A model generated the notes under the pieces. The model was not told the origin of the DNA and did no database searches. It worked only from the letters and a program-made list of their open reading frames with translations. Shown piece after piece: positions 1,500 through 57,414 of a DNA stretch of 64,000 nucleotides; the stretch's first letter is position 1, and the number at the start of each line of letters is the position of its first letter. Where the stretch lies: assembly GCF_019059575.1 (NCBI RefSeq), contig NW_024881574.1, forward strand, positions 124,001-188,000, read 5' to 3'. The DNA is from Amphibalanus amphitrite (lineage: Eukaryota > Arthropoda > Thecostraca > Balanomorpha > Balanidae). Made by a program: the position numbers and the translations under genes.

Positions 1500-1591
1500 G
1501 GCAAATGCTCACCATAGATATACCGACTGAACGATCCCTTTATAACTTCAGCGATTGATAAGACAAACAGTGTGTAACTGTATATATATAA

Positions 1592-2474: not shown

Positions 2475-2620
2475 TTAAATGTAAGTCTCGAAATTGCGAT
2501 GTCTCTGACCAAATGTAAGGACAATTTTGCGACCCTTCCATTAGGTAAAAGGAAATGGGAGAAAATCAGGGCATGTGCCTCTTTTTATAGGTAGACAAAT
2601 GTCAAAGTTAACGAATTTAA

Positions 2621-4384: not shown

Positions 4385-4766
4385 TCAAGGGAAGGCACTA
4401 TCATTTGGGGGCGCTGCAGATATGCTAAGGGACGACAGCATCATTTTGATTTTTGAGGCGCGCCACCAATTCTTTTTAGGGCCACCGACACTGTGAGGAG
4501 CGCAATTATGTCTTTGAGCGTTGCGGGGTGGCACCATTACATTGAAGGGCGCCATGTGAGCAGTGATGTGGGGCAAAATGACAATGAGGAGCGCCTCCGA
4601 TACTTTAAGAAGAAAGAGACGCCAACATTACTCGGGGGGGGGGGGGGCAACATCACTTTTATTTTGAGGACGCCACCCACATTGTAAGGGGCGGCACTGT
4701 AACTTTAAGGACCGCAATGGATACTTTAAGGGGCGGCTCCATCATATGGAGGGGTGCTACAGATCG
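4385..4766. repeat. 21-bp GGGGCGGC minisatellite, left block of element copy 1
   Basis: Degenerate 21-bp units built on GGGGCGCC or GGGGCGGC, then ACC, then a variable AT-richer half. The block is interrupted at 4770 by the TTAA-type insertion 4771-5945 and resumes at 5950. Because 21 is a multiple of three, all frames stay open for long distances without selection. A poly-G run at 4634-4646 has its counterpart in a poly-C run at about 31917-31930 of the sister element. Confidence 0.8.
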
Positions 4767-4770
4767 TTAA

Positions 4771-5945: not shown

Positions 5946-5949
5946 TTAA

Positions 5950-7310: not shown

Positions 7311-7400
7311 ACGGCACCTAGCCTGCATGTGCGTGCTGCATCCTAGAGGGGGCGGCAACTGGGTCGGCCAACGGCTGTCACTGGGTCGGCATTCTCCGTG

Positions 7401-7426
7401 ACTGGGTCGGCAATTGCCGACCCAGT
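7401..7426. repeat. 26-bp perfect palindrome near the right end of element copy 1
   Basis: ACTGGGTCGGCAATT followed by its mirror forms a perfect 26-bp palindrome. The half ACTGGGTCGGC occurs two or three more times just upstream (about 7350-7400), giving a subterminal cluster. The identical palindrome sits at 29260-29285 in the sister element, at the equivalent distance from the terminus. Clustered subterminal palindromes are typical transposase-binding candidates. Confidence 0.7.
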
Positions 7427-7457
7427 TAACATGTTAAAATACGCCCTGCCGTGCAGC

Positions 7458-9516: not shown

Positions 9517-9643
9517 CGGGGTGGCGCAGCTCGTAGCGGGAGACGTCCAGGTTTTTGTCCTTGCAGATCTGATCCAGAATCTCAGCGAGCGGCGTTTTCG
9601 GTGAAACCCTCATCGCTGAGAGCTGGTTCCGCGGGAGGTATAC
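9517..9643 (-). CDS. cobl: Cordon-bleu-like protein, identified exon 4 (ubiquitin-like core)
   Basis: A 127-bp exon with acceptor TTTCTGCAG before 9643 and donor CCCCG|GTGAGT after 9517. It opens in phase 0 and ends after one base of a codon. It encodes VYLPRNQLSAMRVSPKT, then PLAEILDQICKDKNLDVSRY and ELRHP. In Cordon-bleu proteins this is the second half of the N-terminal ubiquitin-like COBL region: a beta strand, the conserved RVSP..PL, then a helix ending in an acidic or Cys-containing segment. COBL proteins regulate actin filament assembly and bind partners through this region. Joined to exon 3 it reads ADAKIRIKVYLPRNQ without a break. The acceptor is only about 18 bases from the 696-bp tandem repeat that fills the intron upstream. 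I recognise the family from memory of vertebrate COBL; no search was run. Confidence 0.82.
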
Positions 9644-14922: not shown

Positions 14923-14944
14923 CTGCGGGAGAGGGGAAGACATA

Positions 14945-15110
14945 CAGGTCAACGAAAGGTCATAAGAGGTCAGTGGGAGATCACAGGTCAGTGGGAAGTC
15001 ACAGAGATCAGTACCACAGGTCGGTCAAAGAGGTCACAAAGGTTGGTACAACAGGTCAGAAACAGGTCACAGAGGTCAACGACACAGGTCAGCAGGAAGT
15101 CACAGAGAAC
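14945..15110 (+). promoter_or_regulatory. Cluster of AGGTCA half-sites in intron next to COBL-like exon 2
   Basis: Nine exact AGGTCA words plus variants (AGGTCG, AAGTCA, AGATCA) in about 165 bp, all on the plus strand. Spacings include direct repeats with 5, 4, 5, 3 and 7 intervening bases. By chance a given hexamer is expected about 0.04 times on one strand in this length. Direct repeats of AGGTCA with 3-5 bp spacing are the classic binding form for RXR-type nuclear receptor heterodimers. The array may equally be a decayed short tandem repeat; function is inference. Confidence 0.5.
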
Positions 15111-17341
15111 GTAAGCAACATATGTCTATTGGGCCTCAAATGCACCCCATACCAATGATGTATGTCATACAATATTCGGTGCGTGAAGTATCAGTGCAAA
15201 GGAACCACCACAAGCGTTCACTAATGCGGCCACAGTCCACACAGCCTTCCTCATTGGAGCAAACAGTCCCCTCCGCACACAACGCTGCGTTTTCCTCTAC
15301 AGCTTCACAACGGTTGTAGGTATTTGTAGAAATGAACAAGACCACTCCATTGATTTTCCCACAGTCTGTCGACAACTGGTAGCGGACGATACTATCGCAA
15401 CGTAATAGCCAGAGATTTGGGATTATTTGGATTGCTGGTTTTAGTCGCTTACAGAAAACTCACAGGTGGACAGCTTAAAAGCGTAAATCATTTTTACGCG
15501 ACGTATCCACCCCGTAAACGTCCAAAAGTAAACGTGAAATGTTGCACCACAGTTGGGTCACATTTACAGAAAGCGCGGCACAAAAAAATAGCATGACCCT
15601 TACTGGCGACAAGAAACCTTTTAACACCGTCTTAGAAAGACACAAATATCGATGTGATATTGACTAGGGTCACATGCATTGGGAGCATGAACTTTTCGTA
15701 TGCCACGGTTCGGTCCAACAGATTCTCCATGCCCCACCTGGAGTTCAGCACCCAGTTCTCGATTTTCCAATCTTGCGCCGTTTCAGTCCTCGGTACAGCA
15801 GTCCAGCTCCGGCGCCCAGTTGCACGTGTTCCAATACGCTCCGGCGGCCAGTCCTCGGTGCCTCAATCCCGCTCTGGCGCCCAGGCCTGTGTGTTCCATT
15901 CCGTCCCAGGCGCCCAGTCCTCGGTGCCCCAGTGACCGTGTGCCGCCAGCCCGCCCCGTCTCTTGGACGGAGGGCAGTGACCTCGGCCGGCGCCCCACGC
16001 GGTACCACGCCGTCCGACCGCCGTTCGGTCGGCCATCCATACTGAGCAGCCGGACCAGGGCCGGACCGGTCTATATAGCCCAACGCAGGAGCCGTAAAAC
16101 GCTATGGACCGATATACATACGGGAGATGACCTGGGTCGGCGTGGGACCAACAGAAGCGCGAAGGCAATACGGATTACTGATACATATTGTAGATGTACG
16201 AGACCAGCCACAAAGCCGAGAGCCGAGAGACAGTGTCGACAGACTAGAGTACGAACAAAGACGGGGCTAACGACATCAAGAAAGATAAAGACCAACAAGA
16301 GGTATCGCCGACGAACATTGAACAAGAGCATCGTATGGCCTGCGACAAGACCAGAGAGGCGACGGCGACCGGCACGGGCCTCAGTGGCAACACACATCGC
16401 CACCAGCCCCACTGACCCAGAAACGGTGCAGGTGCGGAGGCGACTCCGTTCTGATGCAGTCGGTAACGCGTCAGGCATGCCTCGTTAGCATACTTGGAAG
16501 GCAGGACTGGAGAATTCGGTTAGGGTCACATGCCTGCCAAAGTGACGACAGCCGGACCATAGATCAGGCGCGTATGTACAACGCCGCTCTTCAAGGCATC
16601 TGTCCAATGCGTAAGCCAAATACCTACATTACTTTCACAATCGCGCTCATTTTCAAGTTGCCGCACATATTCTGTCTCTATTGCAACGAATGAAAATTGC
16701 TCAGTTTGTGTAATCATAGCAGTTTTTCTTTCGGCACTCTCGGAATCTTGCACTCTGTCGATTCATCGTCCAAGTTCACCGAACATCGAGCTCCCCGTCC
16801 AGTCACCGAGCGGACATAGCGCTACTAACGCTCTGAGCACGACATTCAGCAGAGGGCCTGCCGGGCTCCCACGCTGTCGGCACTTCCCGCGACAAACGTC
16901 TCACACGCCGCACGGCTCGGCACTCACGACCGGCGCGCCGCACTGCACGACAATGACAATGACACTGACGCCGCAGCGCGTGGTATCCGCATCCTGATCA
17001 TAGCAACGAGTGGAGACAACCAACTACAGCCTGATAGGGTAGGTGCACACTGCACAGATCTTCAATTCATCGCTTTTGGTCAAATTGTCGAGGTTCATAT
17101 GACACAAAAGGATAACATCAGCTCTTCCACACTTTTGCAACACAGTACTTAAACAGTACTTACTGTAGATGCCGCAGGTAATCTTGAACTAGCTGTCGAA
17201 AACCCCACTGATTAGTCCATCGTCAGTAGTAGCTAGTCACTCGGTGCATGGGCGCATAGAACGACCCATATGTCGATGCACCTTGGAAACTTAACAGACA
17301 AACAATGATCACTCAAAACTCGCCCGTTACCCGGTACTCAC
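15111..17341 (-). other. Intron between COBL-like exons 1 and 2
   Basis: Phase-2 intron of 2,419 bp (17341-14923). At about 15780-15935 there is an imperfect minisatellite of roughly 60 bp (GCGCCCAGTCCTCGGTGCC-like units) that generates a long plus-strand frame of 262 codons (15700-16488). That frame is rich in Arg/Ser/Pro and lacks any domain, so it is not called. The rest is unremarkable. Confidence 0.5.
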
Positions 17342-27099: not shown

Positions 27100-29259
27100 T
27101 TTCCTATTAAACCAAGCGCTTCAGTCTATGCCTACACGCAAGCCAAAGCCATTCTAACCACTGCCCCTCAGATTTATAATCCTGCATCAAACCTCAAGTT
27201 GCGACGCTCTGCCCGCCGGTCACCGGTCGACTGTGCAGCAGTCACTGACCGGCCCACCGGCGCGGGGTGGGCTCACGAGCCAATCATCTGCCGACGTCAC
27301 GGTCACGGCGGCACAGCGTGACGTGACGTGACGCAGCGGGCCCGGTGACGTCACAGTCGTGACGCTGGCGTTCCCGTGTCGACGCGGAACGACGCGGGTC
27401 GTGTCATTTCACGGCGTCTGCCGTCTTAGGGCGAGTTTTGAAGGTCACGAAACACGGCGCATGCTTCCGTAATCGTTAGTATCTGCTAGTAGAGACTTCA
27501 CACGAAACAGTCAGCGGCAGAGTCCTTTCAGTCGTCATCTAAGACCCTGTGATGACCACACAGCGAGGATCACGAGGTGACACAACCCGGCTGACAAAAC
27601 CTGACCTTCGCCTGACCGCTCGGGTCAGCTCCTTGGCCGAAGATTGCCAAACATTGCCCAACGGGTCGCAGTCGTCGGGACGGCGACGGAGCTGCCGACT
27701 AGAGATCAGGACCGGGGTGACCTCGACCGTCTGATGAGACGATGGGACGCACCAGGGTCGCTCTCGGTCGTACCCGTGACAGCGCCACGCATACTCCGTG
27801 ACGGGGGCAGTGCCATTCCTCTGCAAAGTCTCACGTCACGTCACGGGTCACATGACGCGACCAACGACAGTGACCGGCGTCATCATCATAAAACTAAGCA
27901 AACAATGGCACTGAGAAAGCAGGAAACGGAAGCCGGCAGAGCCACCGGAACGACTGGAAGACGATCCATGCAAAGACGTGCAGAGCGGTACAATTGAACG
28001 CAGCCGGCGATGACACGGCGGAGGAAAAACGCAGCCCTTTCAGCTGCAGGTCAGTGACTGGCAAAGTCGGCACAAAACCGGCACCATGGAACCCGCAGCA
28101 GTCGGCGGACAAAACCAAAGGCACGGAGAAAAACATACACTCCGCCGTGACCGGGCGGTTTGTGCCACTCGGGGTCACCTCACGAGCATATGGAGATGTT
28201 TCTGCAGAGGTCACCGGCCGACCTCGCAAATACACATATGTTCAGTGGAGGTCAGAGGTCGACACAGGCGCGCTCAGAGCCACCGAGAGATGGACCGTAA
28301 CCGGGTGGTAACAGCCGCAGTCGGCCGCCAGACCGGGAGCGCTGAGTGCACTAGCCGCGGAGATATGCAAAATTATGCATGCAGTGCACGCTTAATTCCA
28401 GATAATTGTGCGGTATAAAAACATGAACATCTTCCACGAATCTCAATCCATCAGCATTTGACGGTAAATGCATAGTCTAGTAAAAACGTACCACCGCATA
28501 ACTGTACGATTCATCCGCAGGATACTGCCGTTACAGATCGATAAAAAGTCCCTGAAAGACGAGCACACCTAATTTCCCATTCACCATAATCCCTGACATC
28601 TCAGTGCTGCTGAAACCACAATCCGCAGCAGTTTTTTTTTTCTAGCGGCATCAATTCACGCTGGGCACAGGGCATCAATCACGAGAGGAAAACAGTCCCT
28701 AGTTGGCCGGTTGTTGCATGATTGAGCCGCATACCATCATCCGCCGGAACGGGTGGTACCGGCCCGGCCGGCCGGCCTGACACGCAGGGGGCGAGCGGGG
28801 CACGCAGCCGGCGCGGTCAGCGCGGTTCAGTCAGAATTGCTCGGTCAGCACGGCTCGGTTTACGGTCAGCTCTCGGCAGGCAACAAATTGCAGCCAGCAC
28901 TGCTGCACGAACAGATGCACGAGCAATCGAACCAGGCTGGCAGTCCTGTCTAGCATGAATAAATGCCAGCCAGTCGACAAGTCGCCTGGCCAGTGGCAGT
29001 GAAGTCATCACCAGCTCTCTCGATTCGTGACCGCCGCCAGCAGCAACTGACCCGACCGACCGACCGACTAGCGAGCGGGGGAAGGGAGGAGAGGCACCCT
29101 GACGGCAAGCCCACCCCGAGGGTGTGGACACGCCCACTGTTTGTCCGTCAGCTCCCACCAGGGGGCGGGGCTGGGACATCGGCGCTGGAAGCGACCCGCC
29201 CGGGCGCCGCCCGCCCCAGAGGGAAGGAGAGTCGACTCAGGGCGTATTTTAACATGTTA

Positions 29260-29285
29260 ACTGGGTCGGCAATTGCCGACCCAGT
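29260..29285. repeat. Subterminal 26-bp palindrome of element copy 2
   Basis: Identical to the palindrome at 7401-7426 and at the matching place beside the terminus, followed by two or three further GCCGACCCAGT half-copies up to about 29335. Confidence 0.7.
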
Positions 29286-29369
29286 CACGGAGAATGCCGA
29301 CCCAGTGACAGCCGTTTGCCGACCCAGTTGCCGCCCCTCTAGGATGCAGCACGCACATGCAGGCTAGGT

Positions 29370-29783
29370 GCCGTCATTCATAGTGAGGCTGCTGCCCTCC
29401 GAAATGATAATGCCGCCTCTTAAAGTGAAGCAGCCGTCTATAGAAAGTGATGATCCCGCAACTCAATGTGACAGTGCCGCCCTGAATCTGTTAGTAGCCC
29501 CACTCAATGTACCAAATGGTGCCGCCCTTCTAAGCATCTGTGGAGCCCCGCAATGTGATGATACCGCCCCTCAAGAAGATGATGCCGCCCCTTTCAGTAT
29601 CGGTGGCGCCCCTCAATGTGATGGTGCCGCCCTCAAAGTGCCGGTGGCGCCCCTGAATTGATGGTGCTGCCCGCCAACGAGTCGGTGGCGCCCCTCAAAA
29701 TGATGCTGCCGCCCCTTTAAGTGTTGGCGCCGCCCCTTATAGTGTCAGTGACGCCTTTCGAAGTGTCGGAGGAACCCACCAAT
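29370..29783 (-). repeat. 21-bp minisatellite block, left part of element copy 2
   Basis: Reverse-complement units (GCCGCCCCTCAATGTGATGGT-like, 21 bp) equivalent to 6700-7310 of copy 1. Interrupted at 29788 by a piggyBac-like insertion. Confidence 0.85.
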
Positions 29784-29787
29784 ATAA

Positions 29788-30818
29788 CCCTCGCCGGACC
29801 TATTGGTTTTCTACATACGCGCCGGCCGAGGGGGGGGGGGCGGGTACGACCCCCCCCCTCGCCGTTTCGCCCCTGGTGGAGCTAGCGCGTCGCGGAAAAA
29901 ACGAGCGTGTGCGCCGTTACGAGACGCAGAGATTGGTATCCGATTTTAAGGTCCTAGGTCAACCGGTGACCTCTGAGGTCAGGTCAAGTGCCCCAAGGTA
30001 CGGTTCAGTTTTTGGTGAATAACTTCGCAAAAAACGGCCGCAGCGCGCCGATTTTGGCAGCATCGTGTTCGTCTCGCTCAGGCGCGTCGAATGATATACT
30101 TTTTGTCCGGGTCAGGTCAACTTGGGGTGTTGACCTCAGGTCAAGGTCAGGTCAGCACCCCCAGGTCACGAAGTTGGTCGAAAGAGGTCATGTCGCATAT
30201 CATTCGATTCGGCCGGTCTTCCTGAGTCCATTGGTGGCTTTCCCGACTCGCTAGCTCAATTTGATCAAGAGTTATTGACGAAAAACTAATATGACCTTGA
30301 TGACGTCATAAATGACGTCACGCAAGGTCAACATTGCAAAAGTGACGCATCTAACCTTGCAAGGAGTGCATCAAATCACGATTCTGTGTGCTCGAGATAG
30401 TTGGAGATCGTTCCCGGCGCCAGAATAGCAGTTTGAATTTTTCCCCATTGACTTATAATGGTGAGGTCACGAAAATGACCTGACCTCATATGACCTTTAG
30501 GAAAAATCCGAGATATACAAGTTGTGGGACTCATAATGGATACTAGATCCTGCAAGTTTCATTTCCCTGTGACATCTCCTCTGGCAGTGAGGGCGTTGCG
30601 AAGTTGCGACATCTGAAGACCGTGCAGAGGTTCACTTATGACGTCATAGGTCAGTGACCTGACCTGACCCGAAAATGCGGTTGGTGTCAAAAGATCCGGC
30701 TTGGATCAAAGGTCAGGTATGCCAAGTTTCAGCTCTCTATCGCCAGCGTGTTCGGAGCTATCGCGAAAAAAACCCTATGGGGGGGCGGCATCCGCCCCCC
30801 CCCCTCGGCCGGCGAGGG
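29788..30818. mobile_element. piggyBac-like MITE no. 4, nested in element copy 2
   Basis: Ends CCCTCGCCGG and CCGGCGAGGG, flanked by ATAA at 29784-29787 and 30819-30822. The unoccupied site with one ATAA is seen in copy 1 (minus strand at 6690-6700 and again at 6900-6912). The G-run/C-run hairpins are at about 29831-29862 and 30779-30804. TGACCT/AGGTCA words are concentrated at 29950-30200 and 30470-30670. It is of the same subfamily as MITE no. 1 (same 10-bp tips and similar sequence inside the left end). Confidence 0.85.
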
Positions 30819-30822
30819 ATAA

Positions 30823-32190
30823 TGGTGCCGCCCCTCTAGGTATGCACATAGCCCCTCATTGTGATGGAGCCGCCCCTCAAGCAGACGATGCCGCCATATC
30901 AAGAAGATGATGCCGCCCCTGAATGTGATGGTGCTGCCCGCCAACGAGTCGGTGGCGCCCCTCAAAATGATGCTGCCGCCCCTTAAAGTGCTAGTGCCGC
31001 CCCTCATAGTGTCAGTGACGCTCTTCGGAGTGTCAGAGGAACCCACCAATATAATGATGCCGCCCCTCTAGGTATCCACATCGCCCCTCATTGTGATGGA
31101 GCTGCCCCTCAAGCAGATGATGCCGCCCCTCAAGAAGATGATGCCGCCCCTTTCAGCATCGGTGGCGCCCCTCAATGTGATGGTGCCTCCCTCAAAGTGC
31201 CAGTGACGCCCCTAAATGTGATGGTGTCTCCTGTCAACGAGTCGGTGGCGGCCTTCAAAATGATGCTGCCGCCCCTAAAAGTGCTGGTGCCGCCCCTTAC
31301 AGTGTCAGTGGCGCCCTTCAAAGTTTTGGAGGAACTCATCAATACAATGTTGCCGCCCTCTAACTTTCTGTAGCGTCCCTCCATATACATAATGGTGCCG
31401 CTTCTCAAACCATCCGTGGCGCCCCTCAAAGTGATGGTGCCGCCCCTTACAGTGTCGGTGGTGTCTCCTCAAAAGTCAAGGTGCCGCCTCTCAAAGAAAT
31501 GCTGGTGTCCCTCGAAGTGTCGGAGGCGCTCCTCAATGTCATGTTGCCGCCCCTCAAACCTTCCGTAACGCCCCTCAACGTCATGGTGCCGCCCCCCCCC
31601 CCCCCCAATGTGCTCACGGCGCCCTTAAATGTCATAGAAGCGCCGGTCAAAGTGATGACTGTGCTCCTGGCAGTGTCGGTGGCGTCCCGAACAGTATCGG
31701 TGGTGCCCCTCAAAGTGATGATGTCACCCTCAAACAAACGGTGGCGCCCTTCGAAGTATCGGAGTCCCTAAATATCATACCTATTACCGCCCATTAACGA
31801 TCTGTAGCGCCCCTCCATATGATGGAGCCGCCCCTTAAAGTATCCGCGGCGGTCCTTAAAGTTACAGTGCCGCCCCTTACAATGGGGTGGCGTCCTCAAA
31901 ATAAAAGTGATGTTGCCCCCCCCCCCCCCCGAGTAATGTTGGCGTCTCTTCTAAGCATCGGAGGCGCTCCTCATTGTCAGTTTGCCCCACATCACTGCGC
32001 ACATGGCGTCCTTCAATGTAATGGTGCCACCCCCAACGCTCAAAGAGATAATTGCGCTTCTCACAGTGTCGGTGGTGCCCCTCAAAGTGGTTTAAGTGCC
32101 CTAAAAAAGTTGGTGGCGCGCCTCAAAATGATGCTGTCGTCCCTTAGCATATCTGCAGCACCTCCAAAATGATAGTGCCTTCCCTTAACC
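30823..32190 (-). repeat. 21-bp minisatellite array, main block of element copy 2
   Basis: Counterpart of 4385-4766 plus 5950-6700 of copy 1, here contiguous because the insertion at 4771-5945 is absent; the empty TTAA lies at about 31794-31799. Minus-strand frames of up to 106 codons with RGG/RGA heptads arise from the 21-base period. Confidence 0.85.
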
Positions 32191-33222
32191 GGCGCCGGGC
32201 TGAGGTTTGAACCCCCTCCCGACCCCTATAACTTGGCTACTGGGCCACGTAGCGACACGCGGTAAGCGGCATTCGAAAGAGTGTTAAAAACTACTTGGGT
32301 TAGTTGGTTAACCGTACTTTGGTTAGGTCAAGTCAAATGTCAAATATCAGGTGACCAGAGGTCATCAAAGGTGAAATGTTGTCTGTTTCAACATTTATTG
32401 ACAAACTGGCGCATAAATCGGGGAAGAATAGAACTACAGCACCGCGAAAAAAGCGCATTCGATTGCTCTTCAACGTTCCTATAAAGTCCTCAGACTTGAC
32501 CTAACATCAACGGCTTAACCTCCAGAGCACAACTAGTTTAACCCGTGCCGGGCCGGGGAGGGTTGGAGTGGACAGTGGACCCCCCTCCGCCCCTCTACTG
32601 AGCTGTTTTAATGAAGAACCTTTTTACTGTAAAAATTATTGACTCACGAAAGTTATGACATTGTTTTTTCAGTACTGTGCTCCTCTCGTCGAGATGCGTC
32701 GAATGAACTATAATTTGACATTCAAATGTCATTTGGGAAATTTGAGCTCATGTCCAGGTCATGACCTGACTGGTAAAGGTCACGTTGCATATCAGTCGAT
32801 TTGTATCGTCAAACTGATATCATCTAAGGTGTTTTCATCGCTCAGGCATGTCGCATGTCTCTATCAGAAGTTATTGAAAAAAACTGATGGAGGCCTTCCA
32901 TGACCTGACATGACCTCAAGGACATAACGAGGGGTCGTGGGTGGCAATTTTCCGATTAAGTGTTTCATTTTTAATTGTTTTATGATGTTTAAATTCGTTA
33001 ACTTTGACATTTGTCTACCTAAAAAAAGAGGCATGCATGCCCTGATTTTCTCCCATTTCCTTATACCTAATGGAAGGGTCGCAAAATTGTCCTTACCTTT
33101 GGTCAAAGACATAGCAATTTCGAGACTTACATTTTATGTATACAGTTACACACTGTTTGTCTTATCAATCGCTGAAGTTATAAAGGGATCGTTCAGTCGG
33201 TGTATCTATGGTGAGCATTTGC

Positions 33223-33265
33223 CTGTTCCGTAGCTCAGTTGGTAGAGCACCGGACTCCCCGCATT
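33223..33265 (+). other. tRNA-like 5' half (A box) inside element copy 2
   Basis: TAGCTCAGTTGGTAGAGC preceded by TGTTCCG and followed by a CCGGACTCCCCG segment. It lacks a B box and a T arm. It corresponds to 1461-1499 of copy 1. Not a functional tRNA by layout. Confidence 0.6.
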
Positions 33266-34549
33266 GTCTTCACTTGCGTTTTGTCCGCCGGCCGATCCGG
33301 AGAGAAAGTTACCGAGTGAAGGTCATTCAAATTTCAAAAACTCAATGAAAATGTCACTGGGGTCACGAAAATATTTGAGTAGGTAGGTATACCATTCATT
33401 AACTTGGGGGGGGGGGGATGAACGTATCGTTACAAATCAATACGCTGTTCATTACGCGAGTAACTAATGAATAAAAAATGTATGACTTCATCCTTACTCC
33501 ACCCGCTCTCCTCCCTCTCCATAAAAAGAGAGTTAATTGTGTTGCATTTTATTTAGATGCAGAAAAATAGAGGCGTCAAAGGATATGGCCGAATATCAGC
33601 GACCCTTGCTGTGTAAGTAATGGGGCTTGCAATGGGGTATGACAAGTGGGGGTAATGGCCCCGTCCAGCGCCCATAAAGTGGGCACCAATCGTGCGACCT
33701 GCCGACCACTGTTCTAGAGCCATAAAACACCGTGAATGTTTTAAGCTTGACGATACGGATCGACTGGTATGCAACATGTTTTATTTATGGTGAGTTCATG
33801 AACTTGACCTCAGGTAAAATTTTTAAATTAATTTTTGTAAAGTCAAATTATAGTTCATTTGTCGCGTTATGACACGAGAAATACTAGTTATATCCCGGAA
33901 AAATCGACGTAATACCGCTGAGCTTAGGTAGGTTGAATCTGAAATCATTACTCAGAAAGAGTTATAAAAGAACCGTCGAACATGTCTTTTTTGTCATTAA
34001 ATATCAGTAGGTATGGCGCCCCCTCAGATGCCAAGTGCCGCCCCTATGAGTGCAAAATGCCGCCCCTAAATGTGATTGCCGACCCAGTGAAAATCCCTTA
34101 AAATACGCCCTGAGAGTCGTGGGAAGATAGATGCACGGCCTTCCAAGGGAAACCGCAGAGCGGAAAGCTGAGAACTCAATAACACTCCAGCCAGAAGAGA
34201 TACCCCTTTCAACATGCAGTCCCAACAATAAATGGTAGTGTCAAGCCGGAAGTCCGTTATCAGCAGCAGGTGGTACGGGAGAAATCATGCCCTTTTCGAG
34301 CCCAGTGCCGCTCCTATAGGAGCCAAACCAGTACCAGTCAGCCCAGTGCCGCGGTCTCAGTCGGCCGTGACAGCGGACTTCCGACCTCCCAAGCCACCTG
34401 GTCCGCCACTCGGTAGGGTCGGCTCCGGCCGTCTGGATCACCGGAAATGAAAGTGACCCATCGGCCGCGCCATTGACGGCGCTATTGGCGACGGTGTCGC
34501 CTGCCGCGGCCGGGCGGCCACTCTAGGTCACCGTCTGGGTCAGCGGCGG

Positions 34550-37748: not shown

Positions 37749-38934
37749 CCCGCGCGGGGCTGGGGGGGTAAATTTTACCCCCCTCGCGAATTTTTGCGAT
37801 ATCTCAAAAACGGCGGCGCGCAGCGCCGCCAAACTTTCAGTACCTTTTCTTACATCAATTTGACACGTTCCCTGAAAATTTGAGCGAAATCCGTCGGAAA
37901 ATTTTTGAGAAATTGACGTTTTAGTGACGTCATGTTCGCCATTTTCGCCTCAAAAACGGCAAAAGTTCAAACGCCGCTAACATCTTCATTTTTAAAGGAA
38001 TCAAGACGTAACAAAAAAGGTTATACGTAATTTTACTTTGTCTATCAAATGGCTATCTCGGTTTTTTAAAAATTTTGGATTTTGGCCTAAATTTTTTTTT
38101 TCAAAAAACTGACTTTTTTGGGAAAATCATTATAAAATCCAAAATTTTGAGTCTATCGAAAAAACCGGAATATATGTCAGAGAAGTGGTCTATGTGCACC
38201 TACATACCAAATTTTAGAAGAATCGGTTCAAAAATGTGGGAGTTATTAAAAATTTCATGACGTCACGACACACAAATTTTTTGAAAAATGACTTTTTTGG
38301 AAGTTCTAGACCTCGTACGGAAACAAAAATAGCACCATTCGATTCGCCGTGAAAAACTGCATCAGATAGACACCTTTTTGGGCCTTAACAACCAACTTCA
38401 AAATTTGACCTCACTTGACCTGACCTTGACCTGACCTCGACCTGAAATTCATCCAGAGGTGGTCCATACCACTTATTGAGTGTGCCTATTGAATTCTATG
38501 AGTAAAATGACCCATAAAACATGTGTCGCACATGCCCTTTTCTATATTTTGTTTTTTGGTGACCTGACCTGACCTGACCTGACCTGACCTTGACCTTGAC
38601 CTCTGAATGATATTGTATGCAACGAATATTGTCTTGGTAGCCTAAGAACACGTTTTGGGCGATCAGTCTCAGTCCATGACTCCATTCTTCGGCAACTACG
38701 GTGCAAGGCCGATACTGTAGAAACTTGCAATTTGTACCCTTGACCTGACCTTGACCTTGACCTCAAACTTTAAATTAAGTACATGTTTTTAGTAGTTCGT
38801 GCTGAGAGCTTTCGATTGGCGTTTGAATTTTCCAAATCGGACCATTAGTTCGGGAGATAACAGGGGGCGGTAAAATTTACCCCCCCCCCCCCCCAGCCCC
38901 GCGCGTTCGGCTGGAGACCCCAGCCCCGCGCGGG
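37749..38934. mobile_element. piggyBac-like MITE no. 5
   Basis: Terminal repeats CCCGCGCGGGGCTGGGG on the left, its reverse complement on the right, flanked by TTAA at 37745-37748 and 38935-38938. Subterminal hairpins: G7-TAAATTTTA-C6 on the left, G-run TAAAATTTA C-run on the right. It shares internal sequence with MITE no. 3 (for example CCAAACTTTCAGTACCTT near the left end). (TGACC)n runs lie at 38410-38440 and 38560-38605. The right end carries a second partial copy of the tip (about 38895-38915), giving a doubled terminus. No coding sequence. Confidence 0.88.
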
Positions 38935-42376: not shown

Positions 42377-43521
42377 CAGTCGGGGAAACTGTGGTCAAAT
42401 CTTCCATTTTTAGAAAGCCTTCCATTTTTGGAAGGATTTTCTATATATGGGTACGCACCTTCCAAAAATGGGTACGCTGACGACGTCATCGTACCCAAAT
42501 ATAGAAAATGTTGCGCATATGTTGGAACTTACCGATTTCCGCCGAACATGAGGCAAATGCGACTATCGCCCCTGGTCGCTTTCTATTCGCCATAGTGAAG
42601 TGTCCATAATCTAGCGTGGATGCCTAAATCCTAGCGTGGATGTATTTTAGGTAATTTTTCAAAGTAATGAGTCGTGGAAAATTGACAAAAATTTACCGAC
42701 AAACGATGGTTTTATAAGACTTTATCAAACATTTTGTAAGCAAAAAGCATCAAAAACGAAAAGTAAATATCCTTAAAAGTACTTTAGTGACGGGCCATGC
42801 TTGTTCGATACCGCCGACTTTATTTACAGTGCGGAATTGTCTGGACAGTGCGGCGGTTTCGGGAGTGTAGTGGCGAGTAAAACTTGTATTTGTTGCCGTT
42901 TTCTGCATTTATTAGCATATTGTGTGGTTGATTTCAATTTTTTAAGGCTTTTGCCAAACATTTGGGTGGAGGTCTCGTCATTTTTCAATGTTTTTTCCGG
43001 AATATGGGACGAATTAAATAGGCGTTGCTGCGCCGTTTTTCGTGTTACTTTCTATCGAAGGAGCATGAATCTTCAATTTATATGAGGAATAGTAAGTTTA
43101 ATTTAAACCATTTTTTGTCAGGGCTATAGCTGTGTTCCTCCTGGTTGGTTATTGACCAGCTGTTTTCTCTTCTGAATTTCTATGTGTCCTCTAGAAGTAG
43201 AAAAAGAGAGCAGTGCGCCAGGACACCATGCTATTATATCACTATGTACATTGACATAGCATGCCTGTATTACCAACACTAGCACTGCTGCTTCTCCTTA
43301 TATCAATGATCATAAATGGCAAAATCAACTATTAATGTTACACATTTAAAAAGGCCGTAACTTAAATCAAAGAATGTGAATCACAGTTGGGAACACTGAG
43401 ATTAGACCTTCCAATTTTGGAAGCCTTCCATTTTTGGAAAATGCATACCCATTTATGGAAGGTCCTTCCAAAAATGGAAGGCTTCCAAAAATAGAAGATT
43501 TGACCACAGTTTTCCCCACTG
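42377..43521. mobile_element. TIR element with stacked TTCCATTTTTGGAA palindromes
   Basis: The left end CAGTCGGGGAAACTGTGG and right end (reverse complement) CAGTGGGGAAAACTGTGG continue as an inverted repeat of about 60 bp. GATA flanks both sides (42373-42376, 43522-43525), a possible 4-bp duplication. Each end is built from several copies of TTCCATTTTTGGAA-like palindromes. Next to the left end lies a second inverted pair around GACGACGTC (about 42430-42510). The 1,145-bp element has no coding frame. CAGTG-type tips occur in several DNA transposon superfamilies; not assigned. Confidence 0.75.
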
Positions 43522-46700: not shown

Positions 46701-47641
46701 AGGATAAGCTGTTTCACAGCTACTTATACCTGCTATATGCTAACAACAAACCATTACAATACGGCATGCAAGCGTCAGTTGGGGGTTGAACCGTGCGCTA
46801 CCGATTAAGGTCAAGGTTCATCAGTTACTGGTCGAGAATAACCCGACTTAATTAGACAACAATACGGTTAATGGCCTTGCAGCATCGGTTTTGTCGAGTT
46901 TCTTATATCACAGCGATTCTGGATTGAAACTAGGATCCATGCAAATTGAGCCTAATTGGCTAATGAAGGTGAATTATAAAGCTTGTGAGTGACCGGCACA
47001 GCTATAGTTCCGATAAAGCTTCATCAGGAAGGCTCATGTTTAATATGCGCCATTGACTGCGCACTGAGCCGTGAGCACATGCCTCATCACCGACGAAGGC
47101 GGTTACTACAGCTCCCAGAGCCTCTCACCGACGGGAGATGGTTACTACAGCTCTCAGAGGGGAGGAGGGAGGATGGCAGAGATTGGTCAAGCCTCTTAAC
47201 GCCAGCTTAGACACCGACCCACCCGCGAGAGGCACTACTGTACACACAGGAGCTGGCGTGGAGGCCTTTCTACTTCCCCTCCCAGTCACTTCGGTAGCGG
47301 CGGCACGCCATTTCCCAATGAACGGTGACGAAGCCTTTCAGAGACTGGGGGTTCGTTGGTGGCCAGACCCGAGGTCTGAAAGGAACAAGGTCGCGGTGCC
47401 CCGACCGGAGGCCGGCACAACTGCAGAGTAACTGACGCCCGTTGGCACAGCCCGCGTGCGGGTATAATACAGAGGACGCACAGGGGGCTTATTGTTCCCG
47501 CTACACCGAGCACGGCACCTATCCGTGCTTCTATCCTCAGGATACTGAAATCCTTCTCCTCCACGCCACAACCCCCTTCCGGGCTGGACAGGCAACTTTA
47601 TCTCATGCGGGCTGCTCCCTTGGAGCGGCACCGCTGCTCCC
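43762..47641. other. Region without a supported gene
   Basis: GC-rich at 44220-44520 (CpG-rich, with (GCGCC)n-like words), AT-rich from 44580. A 42-bp unit is duplicated in tandem at about 47085-47165. Long frames in the GC-rich block are open on both strands and not called. Confidence 0.35.
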
Positions 47642-47650
47642 GAGGGAGCT
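47642..47650 (+). other. 9-bp target site duplication, left copy
   Basis: GAGGGAGCT directly before the left terminus; identical to 52835-52843. Confidence 0.85.
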
Positions 47651-50057
47651 ATGTCCGTCAAGACAGCCCATATTCAGCCCAGATTCAGCCCGGATTCAGC
47701 CCAGATTCGGGACACCTCCGATCAAGCTGAAACTTGCACACAATGTACGCCATGACATGCCCAATCCACAGTCCAAGTCATTCGGTGGCACTCCCAGCCG
47801 TTTGACCTACAGAGGTCAGCAAAGGTCACGTGGCCCAAATTTGCACAGCAGATTGTGGCCCACCCAGTAGAGCTAGAGCGCTAAAAATGGCACCAATCGA
47901 CTCGCCAGCATCTAATCTTACTTTCCCAACACTCATTTGACCTCTCAAGGTCATGCGATGACCTAAGGTCATTTGTGGGCTATATCGAAAATACACTTGC
48001 ACAGCAGTTTTCGAGTAGATGAATTGACCGAATTCCAAATCAGAGAACATCATCGGGTAGCCCATGGGCCGTAATAACTTTCCTTGAAAACCGCTTTTCG
48101 ATATGTGACCCCGTTTGACCTCGGCAGGTCAAAATGTGCAAATAATCGACACTCAATACGTCGCAGCCCGGATTCAGCCCAGATTCGGGACACCTCCGAT
48201 CAAGCTGAAACTCGCACACAATGTAGGCCATGACATGCCCAATCCACAGTCCAAGTCATTCGGTGGCACTCCCAGCCGTTTGACCTAGAGAGGTCAGCAA
48301 AGGTCACGTGGCCCAAATTTGCACAGCAGATTGTGGCCCACCCAGTAGAGCTAGAGCGCTAAAAATGGCACCAATCGACTCGCCAGCATCTACTCCTACT
48401 TTCCCAACACTCATTTGACCTCTCAAGGTCATGCGATGACCTAAGGTCATTTGTGGGCTATATCGAAAATACACTTGCACAGCAGTTTTCGAGTAGATGG
48501 ATTGACCGAATTCCAAATCAAACCAATCGACTCGCCAGCATCTAATCTTACTTTCCCAACACTCATTTGACCTCTCAAGGTCATGCGATGACCTAAGGTC
48601 ATTTGTGGGCTATGTCGAAAATACACTTGCACAGCAGTTTTCGAGTAGATGGATTGACCGAATTTAAAAACAGAGCACATCATCGGGTAGCCCATAGGCC
48701 GTAGTAACTTTCCTTAAAAACCGCTTTTCGATATGTGACCCCGTTTGACCTCGGCAGGTCAAAATGTGCAAATAAACGACACTCAATACGTCGCAGCCCG
48801 GATTCAGCCCAGATTCGGGACACCTCCGATCAAGCTGAAACTCGCACACAATGTAGGCCATGACATGCCTAATCCACAGTCTAAGTCATTCGGTGGCACT
48901 CCCAGCCGTTTGACCTACAGAGGTCAGCAAAGGTCACGTGGCCCAAAATTGCACAGCAGATTGTGGCCCACCCAGTAGAGCTAGAGCGCTAAAAATGGCA
49001 CCAATCGACTCGCCAGCATCTAATCTTACTTTCCCAACACTCATTTGACCTCTCAAGGTCATGCGATGACCTTAGGTCATTTGTGGGCTATGTCGAAAAT
49101 ACACTTGCACAGCAGTTTTCGAGTAGATGGATTGACCGAATTCCAAATCAGAGCACATCATCGGGTAGCCCATAGGCCGTAATAACTTTCCTTAAAAACC
49201 GCTTTTCGATATGTGACCCCGTTTGACCTCGGCAGGTCAAAATGTGCAAATAAACGACACTCAATACGTCGCAGCCCGGATTCAGCCCAGATTCGGGACA
49301 CCTCTGATCAAGCTGAAACTCGCACACAATGTAGGCCATGACATGCCCAATCCACAGTCCAAGTCATTCGGTGGCACTCCCAGCCGTTTGACCTACAGAG
49401 GTCAGCAAAGGTCACGTGGCCCAAATTTGCACAGCAGATTGTGGCCCACCCAGTAGAGCTAGAGCGCTAAAAACGGCACCAATCGACTCGCCAGCATCTA
49501 ATCTTACTTTCCCAACACTCATTTGACCTCTCAAGGTCATGCGATGACCTAAGGTCATTTGTGGGCTATGTCGAAAATACACTTGCACAGCAGTTTTTGA
49601 GTAGATGGATTGACCGAATTCCAAATCAGAGCACATCATCGGGTAGCCCATAGGCCGTAGTAACTTTCCTTAAAAACCGCTTTTCGATATGTGACCCCGT
49701 TTGACCTCGGCAGGTCAAAATGTGCAAATAAACGACACTCAATACGTCGCAGCCCGGATTCAGCCCAGATTCGGGACACCTCCGATCAAGCTGAAACTCG
49801 CACACAATGTAGGCCATGACATGCTCAATCCACAGTCCAAGTCATTCGGTGGCACTCTCAGCCGTTTGACCTACAGAGGTCAGCAAAGGTCACGTGGCCA
49901 AAATTTGCACAGCAGATTGTGGCCCACCCAGTAGAGCTAGAGCGCTAAAAATGGTACCAATCGACTCGCCAGCATCTAATCTTACTTTCCCAACACTCAT
50001 TTGACCTCTCAAGGTCATGCGATGACCTAAGGTCATTTGTGGGCTATGTCGAAAATA
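47651..50057 (+). repeat. Left arm: forward 478-bp monomers
   Basis: The period is 478 bp except between 48182 and 48812 (630), where about 152 bp is duplicated at the junction near 48529. The tip carries four GATTCAGCCC-type decamers in a row (about 47671-47707). Each monomer contains nine AGGTCA/TGACCT half-sites and a CACGTG. Small frames of 63-79 codons recur in every monomer as by-products. Confidence 0.9.
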
Positions 50058-52834
50058 TGGAATTCGGTCAATTCATCTACTCGAAAACTGCTGTGCAAGT
50101 GTATTTTCGATATAGCCCACAAATGACCTTAGGTCATCGCATGACCTTGAGAGGTCAAATGAGTGTTGGGAAAGTAAGATTAGATGCTGGCGAGTCGATT
50201 GGTGCCATTTTTAGCGCTCTAGCTCTACTGGGTGGGCCACAATCTGCTGTGCAAATTTGGGCCACGTGACATTTGCTGACCTCTGTAGGTCAAACGGCTG
50301 GGAGTGCCACCGAATGACTTGGACTGTGGATTGGGCATGTCATGGCCTACATTGTGTGCGAGTTTCAGCTTGATCGGAGGTGTCCCGAATCTGGGCTGAA
50401 TCCGGGCTGCGACGTATTGAGAGTCGTTTATTTGCACATTTTGACCTGCCGAGGTCAAACGGGGTCACATATCGAAAAGCGGTTTTTAAGGAAAGTTACT
50501 ACGGCCTATGGGCTACCCGATGGTGTGCTCTGATTTGAAATTCGGTCAATCCATCTACTCGAAAACTGCTGTGCAAGTGTATTTTCGACATAGCCCACAA
50601 ATGACCTTAGGTCATCGCATGACCTTGAGAGGTCAAATGAGTGTTGGGAAAGTAAGATTAGATGCTGGCGAGTCGATTGGTGCCATTTTTAGCGCTCTAG
50701 CTCTACTGGGTGGGCCACAATCTGCTGTGCAAATTTGGGCCACGTGACCTTTGCTGACCTCTCTAGGTCAAACGGCTGGGAGTGCCACAGAATGACTTGG
50801 ACTGTGGATTGGGCATGTCATGGCCTACATTGTGTGCGAGTTTCAGCTTGATCGGAGGTGTCCCGAATCTGGGCTGAATCCGGGCTGCGACGTATTGAGT
50901 GTCGTTTATTTGCACATTTTGACCTGCCGAGGTCAAACGGGGTCACATATCGAAAAGCGGTTTTCAAGAAAAGTTACTACGGCCTATGGGCTACCCGATG
51001 ATGTGCTTTGATTTGGAATTCGGTCAATCCATCTACTCGAAAACTGCTGTGCAAGTGTATTTTCGATATAGCCCACAAATGACCTTAGGTCATCGCATGA
51101 CCTTGAGAGGTCAAATGAGTGTTGGGAAAGTAGGAGTAGATGCTGGCGAGTCGATTGGTGCCATTTTTAGCGCTCTAGCTCTACTGGGTGGGCCACAATC
51201 CGCTGTGCAAATTTGGGCCACGTGACCTTTGCTGACCTCTCTAGGTCAAACGGCTTGGAGTGCCACCGAATGACTTCGACTGTGGATTGGGCATGTCATG
51301 GCCTACATTGTGTGCGAGTTTCAGCTTGATCGGAGGTGTCCCGAATCTGGGCTGAATCCGGGCTGCGACGTATTGAGAGTCGTTTATTTGCACATTTTGA
51401 CCTGCCGAGGTCAAACGGGGTCACATATCGAAAAGCGGTTTTCAAGGAAAGTTACTACGGCCCATGGGCTACCCGATGATGTGCTTTGATTTGGAATTCG
51501 GTCAATTCATCTACTCGAAAACTGCTGTGCAAGTGTATTTTCGATATAGCCCACAAATGACCTTAGGTCATCGCATGACCTTGAGAGGTCAAATGACTGT
51601 TGGGAAAGTAAGATTAGATGCTGGCGAGTCGATTGGTGCCATTTTTAGCGCTCTAGCTCTACTGGGTGGGCCACAATCTGCTGTGCAAATTTGGGCCACG
51701 TGACCTTTGCTGACCTCTGTAGGTCAAACGGCTGGGAGTGCCACCGAATGACTTGGACTGTGGATTGGGCATGTCATGGCCTACATTGTGTGCGAGTTTC
51801 AGCTTGATCGGAGGTGTCCCGAATCTGGGCTGAATCCGGGCTGCGACGTATTGAGTGTCGATTATTTGCACATTTTGACCTGCCGAGGTCAAACGGGGTC
51901 ACATATCGAAAAGCGGTTTTGAAGGAAAGTTACTACGGCCTATGGGCTACCCGATGATGTGCTCTGATTTGGAATTCGGTCAATCCATCTACTCGAAAAC
52001 TGCTGTGCAAGTGTATTTTCGACATAGCCCACAAATGACCTTAGGTCATCGCATGACCTTGAGAGGTCAAATGACTGTTGGGAAAGTAAGATTAGATGCT
52101 GGTGAGTCGATTGGTGCCATTTTTAGCGCTCTAGCTCTACTGGGTGGGCCACAATCTGCTGTGCAAATTTGGGCCACGTGACCTTTGCTGACCTCTGTAG
52201 GTCAAACGGCTGGGAGTGCCACCGAATGACTTGGACTGTGGATTGGGCATGTCATGGCCTACATTGTGTGCGAGTTTCAGCTTGATCGGAGGTGTCCCGA
52301 ATCTGGGCTGAATCCGGGCTGCGACGTATTGAGTGTCGATTATTTGCACATTTTGACCTGCCGAGGTCAAACGGGGTCACATATCGAAAAGCGGTTTTCA
52401 AGGAAAGTTACTACGGCCTATGGGCTACCCGATGATGTGCTCTGATTTGGAATTCGGTCAATCCATCTACTCGAAAACTGCTGTGCAAGTGTATTTTCGA
52501 CATAGCCCACAAATGACCTTAGGTCATCGCATGACCTTGAGAGGTCAAATGACTGTTGGGAAAGTAAGATTAGATGCTGGTGAGTCGATTGGTGCCATTT
52601 TTAGCGCTCTAGCTCTACTGGGTGGGCCACAATCTGCTGTGCAAATTTGGGGCACGTGACCTTTGCTGACCTCTGTAGGTCAAACGGCTGGGAGTGCCAC
52701 CGAATGACTTAGACTGTGGATTGGGCATGTCATGGCCTACATTGTGTGCGAGTTTCAGCTTGATCGGAGGTGTCCCGAATCTGGGCTGAATCCGGGCTGA
52801 ATCTGGGCTGAATATGGGCTGTCTTGATCAACAT
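50058..52834 (-). repeat. Right arm: inverted 478-bp monomers
   Basis: Strict 478-bp spacing throughout, with only scattered substitutions between monomers. The orientation switch is abrupt at about 50058. Around it GTGGGCTATGTCGAAAATA and TATTTTCGATATAGCCCAC can pair, leaving a loop of about 44 bases. The tip decamers are the mirror image of those in the left arm. Confidence 0.9.
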
Positions 52835-52843
52835 GAGGGAGCT
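52835..52843 (+). other. 9-bp target site duplication, right copy
   Basis: GAGGGAGCT directly after the right terminus; identical to 47642-47650. Confidence 0.85.
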
Positions 52844-53040
52844 GCACCCCGTAGCCGGGTGCAGAGAGTGCTTGGGGGGCTGGTCGGCCTGTCCTATGGA
52901 CGGGCTCAGCCCCGGCGACTCTCTAGGGTGCCTGCCCAGACCAATGTCTCCCCCTAATTCCTATCATCCTTCCGGCTCTGCAATGGTCTTGTCGACCGAA
53001 AGGGCCTAACCCAACAAAACAAACAAACAAACCGAGCACG
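52844..53040 (+). mobile_element. Possible 3' end of a non-LTR retrotransposon
   Basis: A GC-rich stretch ends in GGGCCTAACCCAACAAAAC followed by a short (AAAC)n tail at about 53018-53032. Such simple-repeat tails are typical of non-LTR retroelement 3' ends. No reverse transcriptase frame is in view. The satellite element would have inserted into this sequence, with its upstream part before 47642. Confidence 0.3.
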
Positions 53041-53194
53041 GCTAATAATAACATGACTCAGCTCGACGGATACAACACTCCGGTCATCGCCACTGTATAA
53101 ATAATAACAGATGATGACAAGGTAAAGGATAAATAGCAACTGGGAACAAGGAGATGCTAATCACGAAAAGGCTGACTGTCGTTTTGTCTACAAA

Positions 53195-55846: not shown

Positions 55847-57414
55847 CGCACTCAGAGAAAAATTCACACCCCTTTTGGGTGTAAGGGGTGTAAATTCAAA
55901 AGTACAAATTTGAGCAACAAAATGAGTGTAACAAAACAACCCAATTCGCTACTTTGCTTACACTTCCTTAAGGTGTTCCAGTACACCCAAGAGTTCAGTT
56001 GAGCACCTTATGGTTCAACTCGGGTTTATTCTTACACCTCTACCATTACACTCTTCACCCACATTCCGCTCCTCTTACACCCAGGTATCGCTCAACATAC
56101 CCATTAACACCCATTATGCTGCTGGCACTACCCACCGGATTCCTTTGAGTGCATTCGTACTCCTGTGTTGGGTGTATGTTTAGTACAGTTATACACCATT
56201 GCAGCAAACGCAACGAATTTATGGAAATCCGATCTTTCTTAAATATGAGAGGGAATGAAAAGATATCGTCTAATGTAGCAAAGGTGGGTTTGTTGTTTGC
56301 GTTGTATATGCTCAGGTGGCATATGTTTGTTTGTCGAAATAAAGAAATGCGCCATAACTTGTTGCGCACCCTGTACAGCTTGGCCCCAGACCCATATCAG
56401 CACAGAACAAACGTATATGTAGGTCCGATCAAGTACAATAAACGCGACATCCGGTAACTATATGCTTTTATTCACAATGACTGAACATGTTCTTCTGAAC
56501 TTACGCACCAGCACAATACTTACTTTGCAACATATCATAACATGAACATACCTATCAACATTGCAGGGCCGCCTACACCGATATCGAACAACATGACGCC
56601 GATGGAGGTCACATATTGCAAATATTGAAAAATATCAAAACATTCCACTTGCTTTATAATAACACGGAACAAAAATGATAGACGAACGCGTTTCGGCTAA
56701 ATCACCGTCATCAGCGTCTAAAAGGAGAACAAGGGGCACACATCGAGCAAATATTTGCTCGATGTGTGCCTCTTGTTCTCCTTTTAGACGCTGATGACGG
56801 TGATTTAGCCGAAACGCGTTCGTCTATCATTTTTGTTCCGTGTTATTATACTAGTCTCAACTGAAATAAAATTCCACTTACTCTTTCGCGGCTTCAATAA
56901 AACACGGTGTCACGTCACAACTCACAACACCACTTGGTTCAACGCGCAGGAGAAACGATGGAGGACGTGCGGGCGCCGCGGGCTGCGTGCATGCAAAGTG
57001 CAAACCCCGATGTGCGCATGCGCACAATCGTCCAATCAGCGACGTCGACAGAGAGATCTGGCTGCTTCTACCACCAAAAAGAAGGCTTCCCTGCACCATT
57101 CACAGGGAAATGCTTCGCTTTGGGGGGTAAGGTGAACGCACCGCTATGAACTCGCTCATGAAGCCGCTCAAATGGGGTATTACTGACCCGATAGCGTTAA
57201 TGCTACGCGCCAACGGTTTTTAACATGGACTAAATACGCCCATTAAGGTAGTCACAATAGCAGCGAGGCTTGCGCTACACCATTTGTAGTGAAAAAAACG
57301 CCCAAAAAGGATAAAAATTGAACAAACGTGCTCGATCAACAGCTAAAACATTACTTTTTAAACACCTTTCAGCTCACGTAAACTCAAAGGGTGTAATTTT
57401 TTTCTCTGAGTGCG
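55847..57414. mobile_element. Putative TIR element with ACACCC-rich left end and central palindrome
   Basis: CGCACTCAGAGAAAAA at 55847 is mirrored by TTTCTCTGAGTGCG ending at 57414, followed inward on each side by an ACACCC/GGGTGT word next to AAAGG. The left 260 bp is packed with TTACACC/GGTGTAA words in both directions. A 196-bp palindrome lies near the middle. No target duplication is defined and no transposase found. Confidence 0.55.
56655..56850. repeat. 196-bp spacerless palindrome
   Basis: Arms of 98 bp meet exactly at 56752/56753 (GCAAATATTTGC centre) with one mismatch (GGGGCAC against GAGGCAC). Each arm contains CTGATGA and CCGAAACGCG separated by 13 bases, an arrangement reminiscent of a hammerhead ribozyme core but lacking one expected base. 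Confidence 0.93.

Follow-up and report, generated by a model that had tools for sequence, protein, structure and literature searches.

An inverted array of 478-bp tandem monomers enclosed by a 9-bp target-site duplication: a probable non-autonomous foldback transposon

We identified, in a window of 64 kb (the whole stretch of DNA analysed), a 5184-bp element at positions 47651-52834 that is most probably a non-autonomous foldback-type DNA transposon, its two inverted arms being formed of 478-bp tandem monomers. The element offers a clean example of a tandem array whose ends are defined and which carries an insertion footprint, near the limit at which a foldback element consists of its arms alone. 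The principle has already been described in beetles, flies and nematodes, and the gain is an additional, unusually pure example. One copy of the element was found in the window by blastn, and all the structural evidence comes from this single copy; no second insertion, empty allele or autonomous partner was seen, which we counted against the foldback reading.

Boundaries of the element

The element is enclosed by perfect 9-bp direct repeats GAGGGAGCT located on the plus strand at 47642-47650 (left) and 52835-52843 (right). Each is the longest word common to both 25-nt flanks and lies at a gap of 0 from the tip, a target-site duplication abutting the tips being a hallmark of foldback elements. 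In the whole window GAGGGAGCT starts on the plus strand at 47642 and 52835 only, and its reverse complement occurs once, at 8582. As a control, random pairs of positions were drawn from this window: identical 9-mers were abutted by 33 of 2,000,000 pairs, and by 19 of 2,000,000 when both positions lay outside the main arrays. A looser control, accepting a shared word of at least 9 nt within the 25-nt flanks at any gap, retained 3 of 4000 pairs, compared with a gap of 0 on both sides of the element.

The left tip (47651-47687, plus strand) is composed of ATGTCCG, TCAAGACAGCCCAT and the start of 11-bp ATTCAGCCCAG repeats, and the right tip (52798-52834, minus strand) of ATGTTGA, TCAAGACAGCCCAT and the start of the 11-bp repeats; the tip sequence includes TCAAGACAGCCCATATTCAGCCC. 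Compared in inverted orientation, the 37-nt tips are identical at 34 of 37 bases, and all three mismatches are adjacent (tip positions 5-7, CCG versus TGA). Because of these three adjacent differences the exact end of the inverted repeat is ambiguous, which we counted against the foldback reading. The monomer phase following each 37-nt tip is the same in both arms. This common phase and the 34/37 identity of the tips indicate that the two ends are copies of one terminus and not two chance cuts through an array. Together, the abutting 9-bp duplication, the inverted tips and the monomers in phase at both ends give good support to insertion of the inverted array as one unit. The initial annotation had made the same claim from a perfect 9-bp duplication and matching inverted tips, both of which hold, and its coordinates were exact.

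Elsewhere in the window, a single giant element with inverted termini spanning 719-34111 was considered and rejected: the two copies there are bounded separately, each by its own pair of ends with its own word shared by the flanks, and a likely host exon separates them.

Organisation of the arms

The left arm (47651-50057, plus strand, 2407 nt) contains approximately 4.96 monomers of 478 bp. Monomers L1 (47688-48165), L3 (48796-49273, used as the reference monomer) and L4 (49274-49751) are 478 nt each. L2 (48166-48795) is made of 355+275 nt and carries an internal 152-bp tandem duplication of monomer positions ~204-355, and L5 (49752-50057) is a partial monomer of 306 nt corresponding to monomer positions 1-306; all five are on the plus strand. 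The right arm, inverted (50058-52834, minus strand, 2777 nt), consists of 5 full monomers plus 350 nt, or 5.73 monomers. TRF reports a period of 478 both at 48522-50057 (3.2 copies) and at 50058-52799 (5.7 copies). Long inverted termini built from tandem repeats in unequal copy number, here 2407 and 2777 nt, are another characteristic of foldback elements.

The arms are joined directly, head to head, between 50057 and 50058, and the element has no middle domain. Only a loop of 44 nt (50058-50101), corresponding to monomer positions 350-307 and present in the right arm only, is left unpaired. The join is a plain breakpoint between monomer position 306 on the left and 350 on the right, without clear microhomology.

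A blastn search (E up to 1e-2) recovered no further copy of the monomer from the window outside the element. There were 0 exact matches to a tip 22-mer in viral_contigs, and 0 to a monomer 31-mer in either viral_contigs or genome_contigs; these sets comprise viruses and prokaryotes and are uninformative on the host. The initial annotation had described about four and a half forward and six inverted monomers and nothing else. Arrays in both orientations are indeed present, the counts being corrected to approximately 4.96 and 5.73, and the description as solely monomers is correct except for the two 37-nt tips. Its picture of extremely long terminal inverted repeats that vary in copy number is apt, with variation seen within one copy only.

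Divergence and copy-number change

The monomers are 97-99% identical. Divergence amounts to 297/13703 (2.17%) from arm to arm, 112/4803 (2.33%) within the left arm and 128/6530 (1.96%) within the right arm. The monomers of both arms form one pool, between-arm divergence equalling within-arm divergence. Counted outward from the loop, the initial 306 nt of the arms contain 6 mismatches; the number rises to 20 over 1000 nt and to 38 over 1500 nt. Changes in copy number can be seen within the element itself, in the 152-bp duplication of L2 and in the near-twin monomers R1 and R2, which differ at 3 of 478 positions. Variants at 123, 228, 231 and 297 are common to L2a and R4, and L1-L2 resemble R3-R4. 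An ordered history common to both arms was rejected as not significant, 122 of the 720 monomer orders being as good in a permutation test; the lack of a significant common order was counted against the foldback reading.

Coding content

No ORF of at least 150 aa was detected in the element. Six-frame translations, in which stops were written as X, were searched against Pfam over 1-47.6 and 52.8-62.8 kb, the two stretches flanking the element that make up about 90% of the window, and no transposase was recovered. Weak hits, all below the curated cut-off, were obtained for RBD (E 0.00042), PSK_trans_fac (0.004), Mucin-like (0.0076), Pet191_N (0.029), TUG-UBL1 (0.055) and LbR_Ice_bind (0.096). 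Absence of a transposase would be expected of a non-autonomous copy. No RNA family at the gathering threshold and no tRNA was detected in the window.

Alternative explanations

The element might be a foldback-type transposon of a superfamily other than Mutator (P/Galileo-like, hAT or Merlin), an assignment that we consider unlikely and whose odds overlap with those of the best explanation. The foldback form is reported to arise in different superfamilies, Galileo belonging to P (PMC4079207, PMC3169594). No transposase that would decide the superfamily was recovered in the scanned 90% of the window, and the element has no ORF of at least 150 aa. Galileo generates 7-bp and hAT 8-bp duplications. 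Against these superfamilies, 9 bp is the commonest length given for Tm1 (45/53 elements with 8-10 bp; PMC3169594) and is also listed for Rehavkus (PMC6446971), although one insertion can deviate.

An ordinary satellite array that contains an inversion is a very improbable reading, in which the tips and the 9-bp match would be coincidental or would result from the end joining of a hairpin or extrachromosomal fragment. The 97-99% identity of the monomers is satellite-like and the head-to-head join, a plain breakpoint without clear microhomology, would suit such an origin, but a randomly cut array would be expected to show no shared monomer phase, no extra 37-nt tip on both sides and no abutting perfect 9-bp duplication. 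Long inverted repeats are a known cause of misassembly, and the structure might in principle stem from a chimeric read formed by fold-back or from the collapse of an array. Such an assembly or library artefact is nevertheless very improbable, as the arms are not mirror copies: they show the 38 mismatches per 1500 nt given above, differ in length (2407 versus 2777 nt) and have the internal duplication in one arm only. As arm-to-arm divergence equals within-arm divergence, a mirror-copy read artefact is excluded. The copy number within the arms could still be wrong in the assembly.

Comparison with known elements and proposed mechanism

The initial annotation implied that such an element is rare. 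This is not supported, transposons with tandem arrays inside inverted termini having already been published (PMC4079207, PMC10218199, PMC3169594). Its label of a transposable satellite is mostly right, without designating a new kind, the plan being common to Tetris, Rehavkus-1_TC and Tm1. The word satellite, which would call for long monomer arrays elsewhere, free of transposon tips, is not supported either. Tetris, a foldback element of Drosophila virilis, is described as non-autonomous, with ~220-bp tandem repeats in its inverted termini, a repeat number that varies between alleles, and duplications of 8-10 bp (PMC4079207). Our element resembles it in being non-autonomous, in its inverted termini of tandem repeats and in its duplication length. 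Each terminus of Tetris has two domains, an outer flanking one that reaches up to 866 bp and an inner one, and a middle domain separates the termini (PMC4079207), whereas in our element a tip of 37 nt precedes the array and the arms are directly joined.

The Tm1 Mutator/Foldback family of Meloidogyne has arms of variable tandem-repeat number, 8-10 bp, mostly 9-bp duplications, and terminal motifs of 7 bp that are asymmetric and lie outside the inverted repeat (PMC3169594). Similarly, the first 7 nt of our element differ between its ends (ATGTCCG/ATGTTGA), 4 of these 7 bases being common to both, and the inverted repeat is perfect thereafter. Tm1 differs by its repeat unit of ~14 bp and by some copies encoding a Phantom-type transposase (PMC3169594). 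Rehavkus elements are listed with 9-bp duplications, TIRs of 26-400 bp and a minisatellite that precedes the 3' TIR (PMC6446971); our element has a 9-bp duplication and tandem arrays, but these arrays are of 478-bp monomers that fill both arms. Membership of Rehavkus also involves a transposase with a PHD finger. In Tribolium castaneum, Rehavkus-1_TC is a 9.5-kb element whose arms are filled in part by 164-bp monomers of the satellite TCsat23 (PMC10218199), compared with 478-bp monomers in a 5.2-kb element without middle part or gene. TCAST4, TCAST7 and TCAST8 of the same beetle form inverted unit pairs resembling terminal-inverted-repeat transposons; these are units, single or dimeric, that enclose unrelated sequence (PMC5844308), whereas our element has many monomers per arm.

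If the foldback reading is correct, a Mutator-like transposase likely moves the element, a step that the initial annotation too had offered as inference. The 9-bp duplication lies within the 8-11 bp given for MULEs (PMC6446971). The listed inverted termini are 14-500 bp for MULEs (PMC6446971) and 13-1193 bp for arthropod MULEs (PMC13359780); our arms of 2.4 and 2.8 kb exceed these and the Rehavkus values, which we counted against this assignment, the surveys covering mainly transposase-bearing elements. In the mechanism that we propose, a MULE transposase encoded elsewhere, most likely by a Rehavkus or Phantom relative, would act on the tips in trans and insert the whole block with a 9-bp stagger. 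The monomers would have been born by tandem duplication within an ancestral inverted terminus, and once the gene or middle domain was lost the arms would have come to meet head to head. The monomers would be kept alike, and their number changed, by unequal exchange and conversion acting inside each arm as well as from one arm to the other. Foldback elements with tandem-repeat arms have been proposed as sources of satellite DNA (PMC4079207, PMC10218199), and, given the host genome, the present element would give a handle on whether monomer arrays outside it derive from such insertions.

Palindromic motifs

Each monomer contains four palindromes TGACCT-n-AGGTCA, with spacers of 4, 4, 1 and 4. 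It carries 9 half-sites for 0.25 expected, a number reached in 0 of 2000 simulations. None of the 37 variable columns falls in the 48 half-site columns (P 0.017, post hoc; P 0.060 when the ninth half-site is counted). The palindromes are compatible with repeated, putative protein-binding sites. In the rest of the window, 154 half-sites were counted for 27 expected (~5.7-fold), together with 4 whole palindromes for a mean of 0 in 30 simulations. As half-sites are also enriched there, we toned down any special meaning of the AGGTCA palindromes; their enrichment may be a habit of this genome. It is conceivable, if quite unlikely, that the functional part of the transposon is its array: a mobile, length-variable, putative binding platform with four invariant palindromic sites per monomer, which would need no middle domain, move whole and seed satellite arrays on landing.

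As a separate observation, when the two sides of the insertion target are joined, the sequence folds somewhat better than controls obtained by first-order resampling (z -2.1 and -1.5 for the two strands, 100 samples each, at one site).

Target-site duplication and tips

The putative non-autonomous foldback-type transposon occupies positions 47651-52834 (5184 bp). By direct reading of 47400-53100, a 9-bp duplication on the + strand, GAGGGAGCT, was located at 47642-47650 and 52835-52843. As the initial annotation had claimed, it abuts both tips, the 37-nt sequences at the outer ends of the element, with a gap of 0. It is the longest word common to both 25-nt flanks and occurs on the + strand at only those two places in the whole window, its reverse complement occurring once, at 8582. 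Identical abutting 9-mers were obtained at random position pairs of this window in 33 of 2,000,000 draws, and in 19 of 2,000,000 when both positions lay outside the main repeat arrays. A looser control, requiring a shared word of at least 9 anywhere in 25-nt flanks, gave 3/4000 draws.

Read inward, the left and right tips are ATGTCCGTCAAGACAGCCCATATTCAGCCC and ATGTTGATCAAGACAGCCCATATTCAGCCC, respectively; the inverted match announced initially was recovered save at positions 5-7. These adjacent positions make up 3 of the 14 arm-to-arm differences in the first 515 nt (tip and first monomer). The end heptamers are thus unlike, ATGTCCG and ATGTTGA, and the perfect inverted repeat starts at nucleotide 8. 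Insertion of the array as one unit, as first proposed, is well supported on the one copy examined.

Anatomy of the element

Both arms follow the same plan, a 37-nt tip leading in the same phase to a tandem array of 478-bp monomers, which may represent a satellite. The tip enters the array via 11-bp repeat units of the ATTCAGCCCAG type (4.1 copies spanning tip and first monomer). The left arm (2407 nt) comprises monomers L1 (478), L2 (355+275), L3 (478), L4 (478) and L5 (306), L2 carrying a 152-bp internal duplication; the right arm (2777 nt) comprises R1 to R5 of 478 each and R6 of 350. The inverted array itself was correctly recognised at the outset, and the counts of four and a half forward and six inverted monomers become 4.96 and 5 full plus 350 nt, respectively. 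At the arm junction (50057|50058), the left arm breaks off at monomer position 306 and the right arm at position 350; the resulting surplus of 44 nt in the right arm (50058-50101) forms the foldback loop. The element has no middle sequence beyond this loop, and no stop-to-stop ORF of at least 150 aa was found inside it.

Divergence and history of the array

Pairwise monomer divergence was 2.33% (112/4803) within the left arm, 1.96% (128/6530) within the right arm and 2.17% (297/13703) between arms; thus neither arm has its own monomer lineage. Variants are common to R4 and part of L2, that is, across arms. R1 and R2, which differ at 3/478 positions, represent a recent local duplication. We infer that the monomers were homogenised via unequal exchange and conversion. 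A fold-back chimera of a single template would lack the differences between arms that accumulate outward from the loop (6/306, 20/1000 and 38/1500). A common monomer order in both arms was not significant, 122 of 720 right-arm orders fitting equally well.

Half-sites and palindromes

Each monomer contains 9 TGACCT/AGGTCA half-sites for 0.25 expected, a number reached in 0/2000 simulations. Eight of the nine sit in 4 palindromes TGACCT-n-AGGTCA with spacers of 4, 4, 1 and 4. None of the 37 variable columns falls in the 48 palindrome half-site columns (P 0.017, for a test picked after the motif was seen); adding the ninth half-site gave P = 0.060 in this post hoc test. Outside the element, the rest of the window holds 154 half-sites for 27 expected under a first-order Markov model (about 5.7-fold excess), and 4 palindromes with spacers 0-6, where 30 simulations averaged 0. 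Because the rest of the window is enriched too, the excess in the monomer may be a trait of this genome. TGACC/GGTCA clusters were observed near 1500-3000, 14940-15130, 30000 and 38400-38640. One might guess that the monomer half-sites are binding sites for a transposase or a host protein; in Galileo, repeats within the termini are stated to hold extra transposase sites (PMC4079207).

Comparison with known elements

The element works like a foldback element and shares the plan of that class: long inverted termini that consist of tandem repeats, together with a target duplication of around 9 bp. Tetris of Drosophila virilis is described as non-autonomous, with terminal repeats of about 220 bp, 8-10 bp duplications and a copy number changing between alleles (PMC4079207). 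Tm1 of root-knot nematodes has mostly 9-bp duplications, arms of 14-bp units in variable number and, beyond its inverted repeat, terminal 7-bp motifs that are asymmetric (PMC3169594); the two unlike heptamers found here are a notable parallel to these motifs. Judged solely by duplication length and form, the element may be Mutator-like. However, both arms exceed the tabulated inverted termini of Mutator-like elements (MULEs), 14-500 bp (PMC6446971) and, for arthropods, 13-1193 bp (PMC13359780), which argues against easy filing. Unusual features are the monomer size, the start of each array 37 nt in from the end of the element, and the total lack of a middle domain. Since the kind of element is already known, the finding adds a good further member rather than a new kind.

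Surroundings in the window

About 90% of the window (1-47.6 kb and 52.8-62.8 kb) was scanned against Pfam in six frames, stops being replaced by X; these regions yielded no transposase and no match above curated cut-off. Stop-to-stop ORFs in the window reach at most 352 aa. Neither a tRNA nor an Rfam family passing the gathering threshold was detected in the window, and CpG is not depleted (observed/expected 0.96). A probable exon on the - strand at about 9517-9643, reading VYLPRNQLSAMRVSPKTPLAEILDQICKDKNLDVSRYELRHP with splice-like borders, matched a Raf-like Ras-binding family below its cut-off (E 0.00042); we presume a likeness to cordon-bleu proteins. Taken with the ORF, Rfam and tRNA results, this probable exon points to an animal genome. 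A tandem 699-bp duplication (9657-10355/10353-11051) adjoins it.

The empty target site (47560-47641 joined to 52835-52920) is hairpin-rich; for example, GCTCCC-GA-GGGAGC spans the 9-bp duplication and CTGCACCC-n7-GGGTGCAG lies beside it. A CAAACAAACAAAC stretch downstream might be a retroelement tail.

A second terminal-inverted-repeat element, with ends AGGGCGTATTTTAA, is present in two mutually inverted copies (719-7447 and 29239-34111) and carries a 21-bp minisatellite of the GGGGCGGCACCATCA type toward one end. The words shared by the flanks of its copies are GCCGTGCAGC (10 bp) and GAGAGTCG (8 bp); both lie directly against the right tip but 3 or 4 nt off the left tip. Random flank pairs shared a word of at least 8 in 23/4000 and of at least 10 in 0/4000. 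In plan these copies are like Rehavkus, a MULE relative known with terminal satellite or minisatellite repeats. A near-perfect palindrome (98.98%) of 196 bp at 56655-56850, with ends TATAATAACACGGAAC, is possibly a TA-target miniature element, no duplication longer than TA being found around it. At 43384-43521, units of the CCTTCCAATTTTGGAAG type form a further palindrome, which is imperfect (75.7%).
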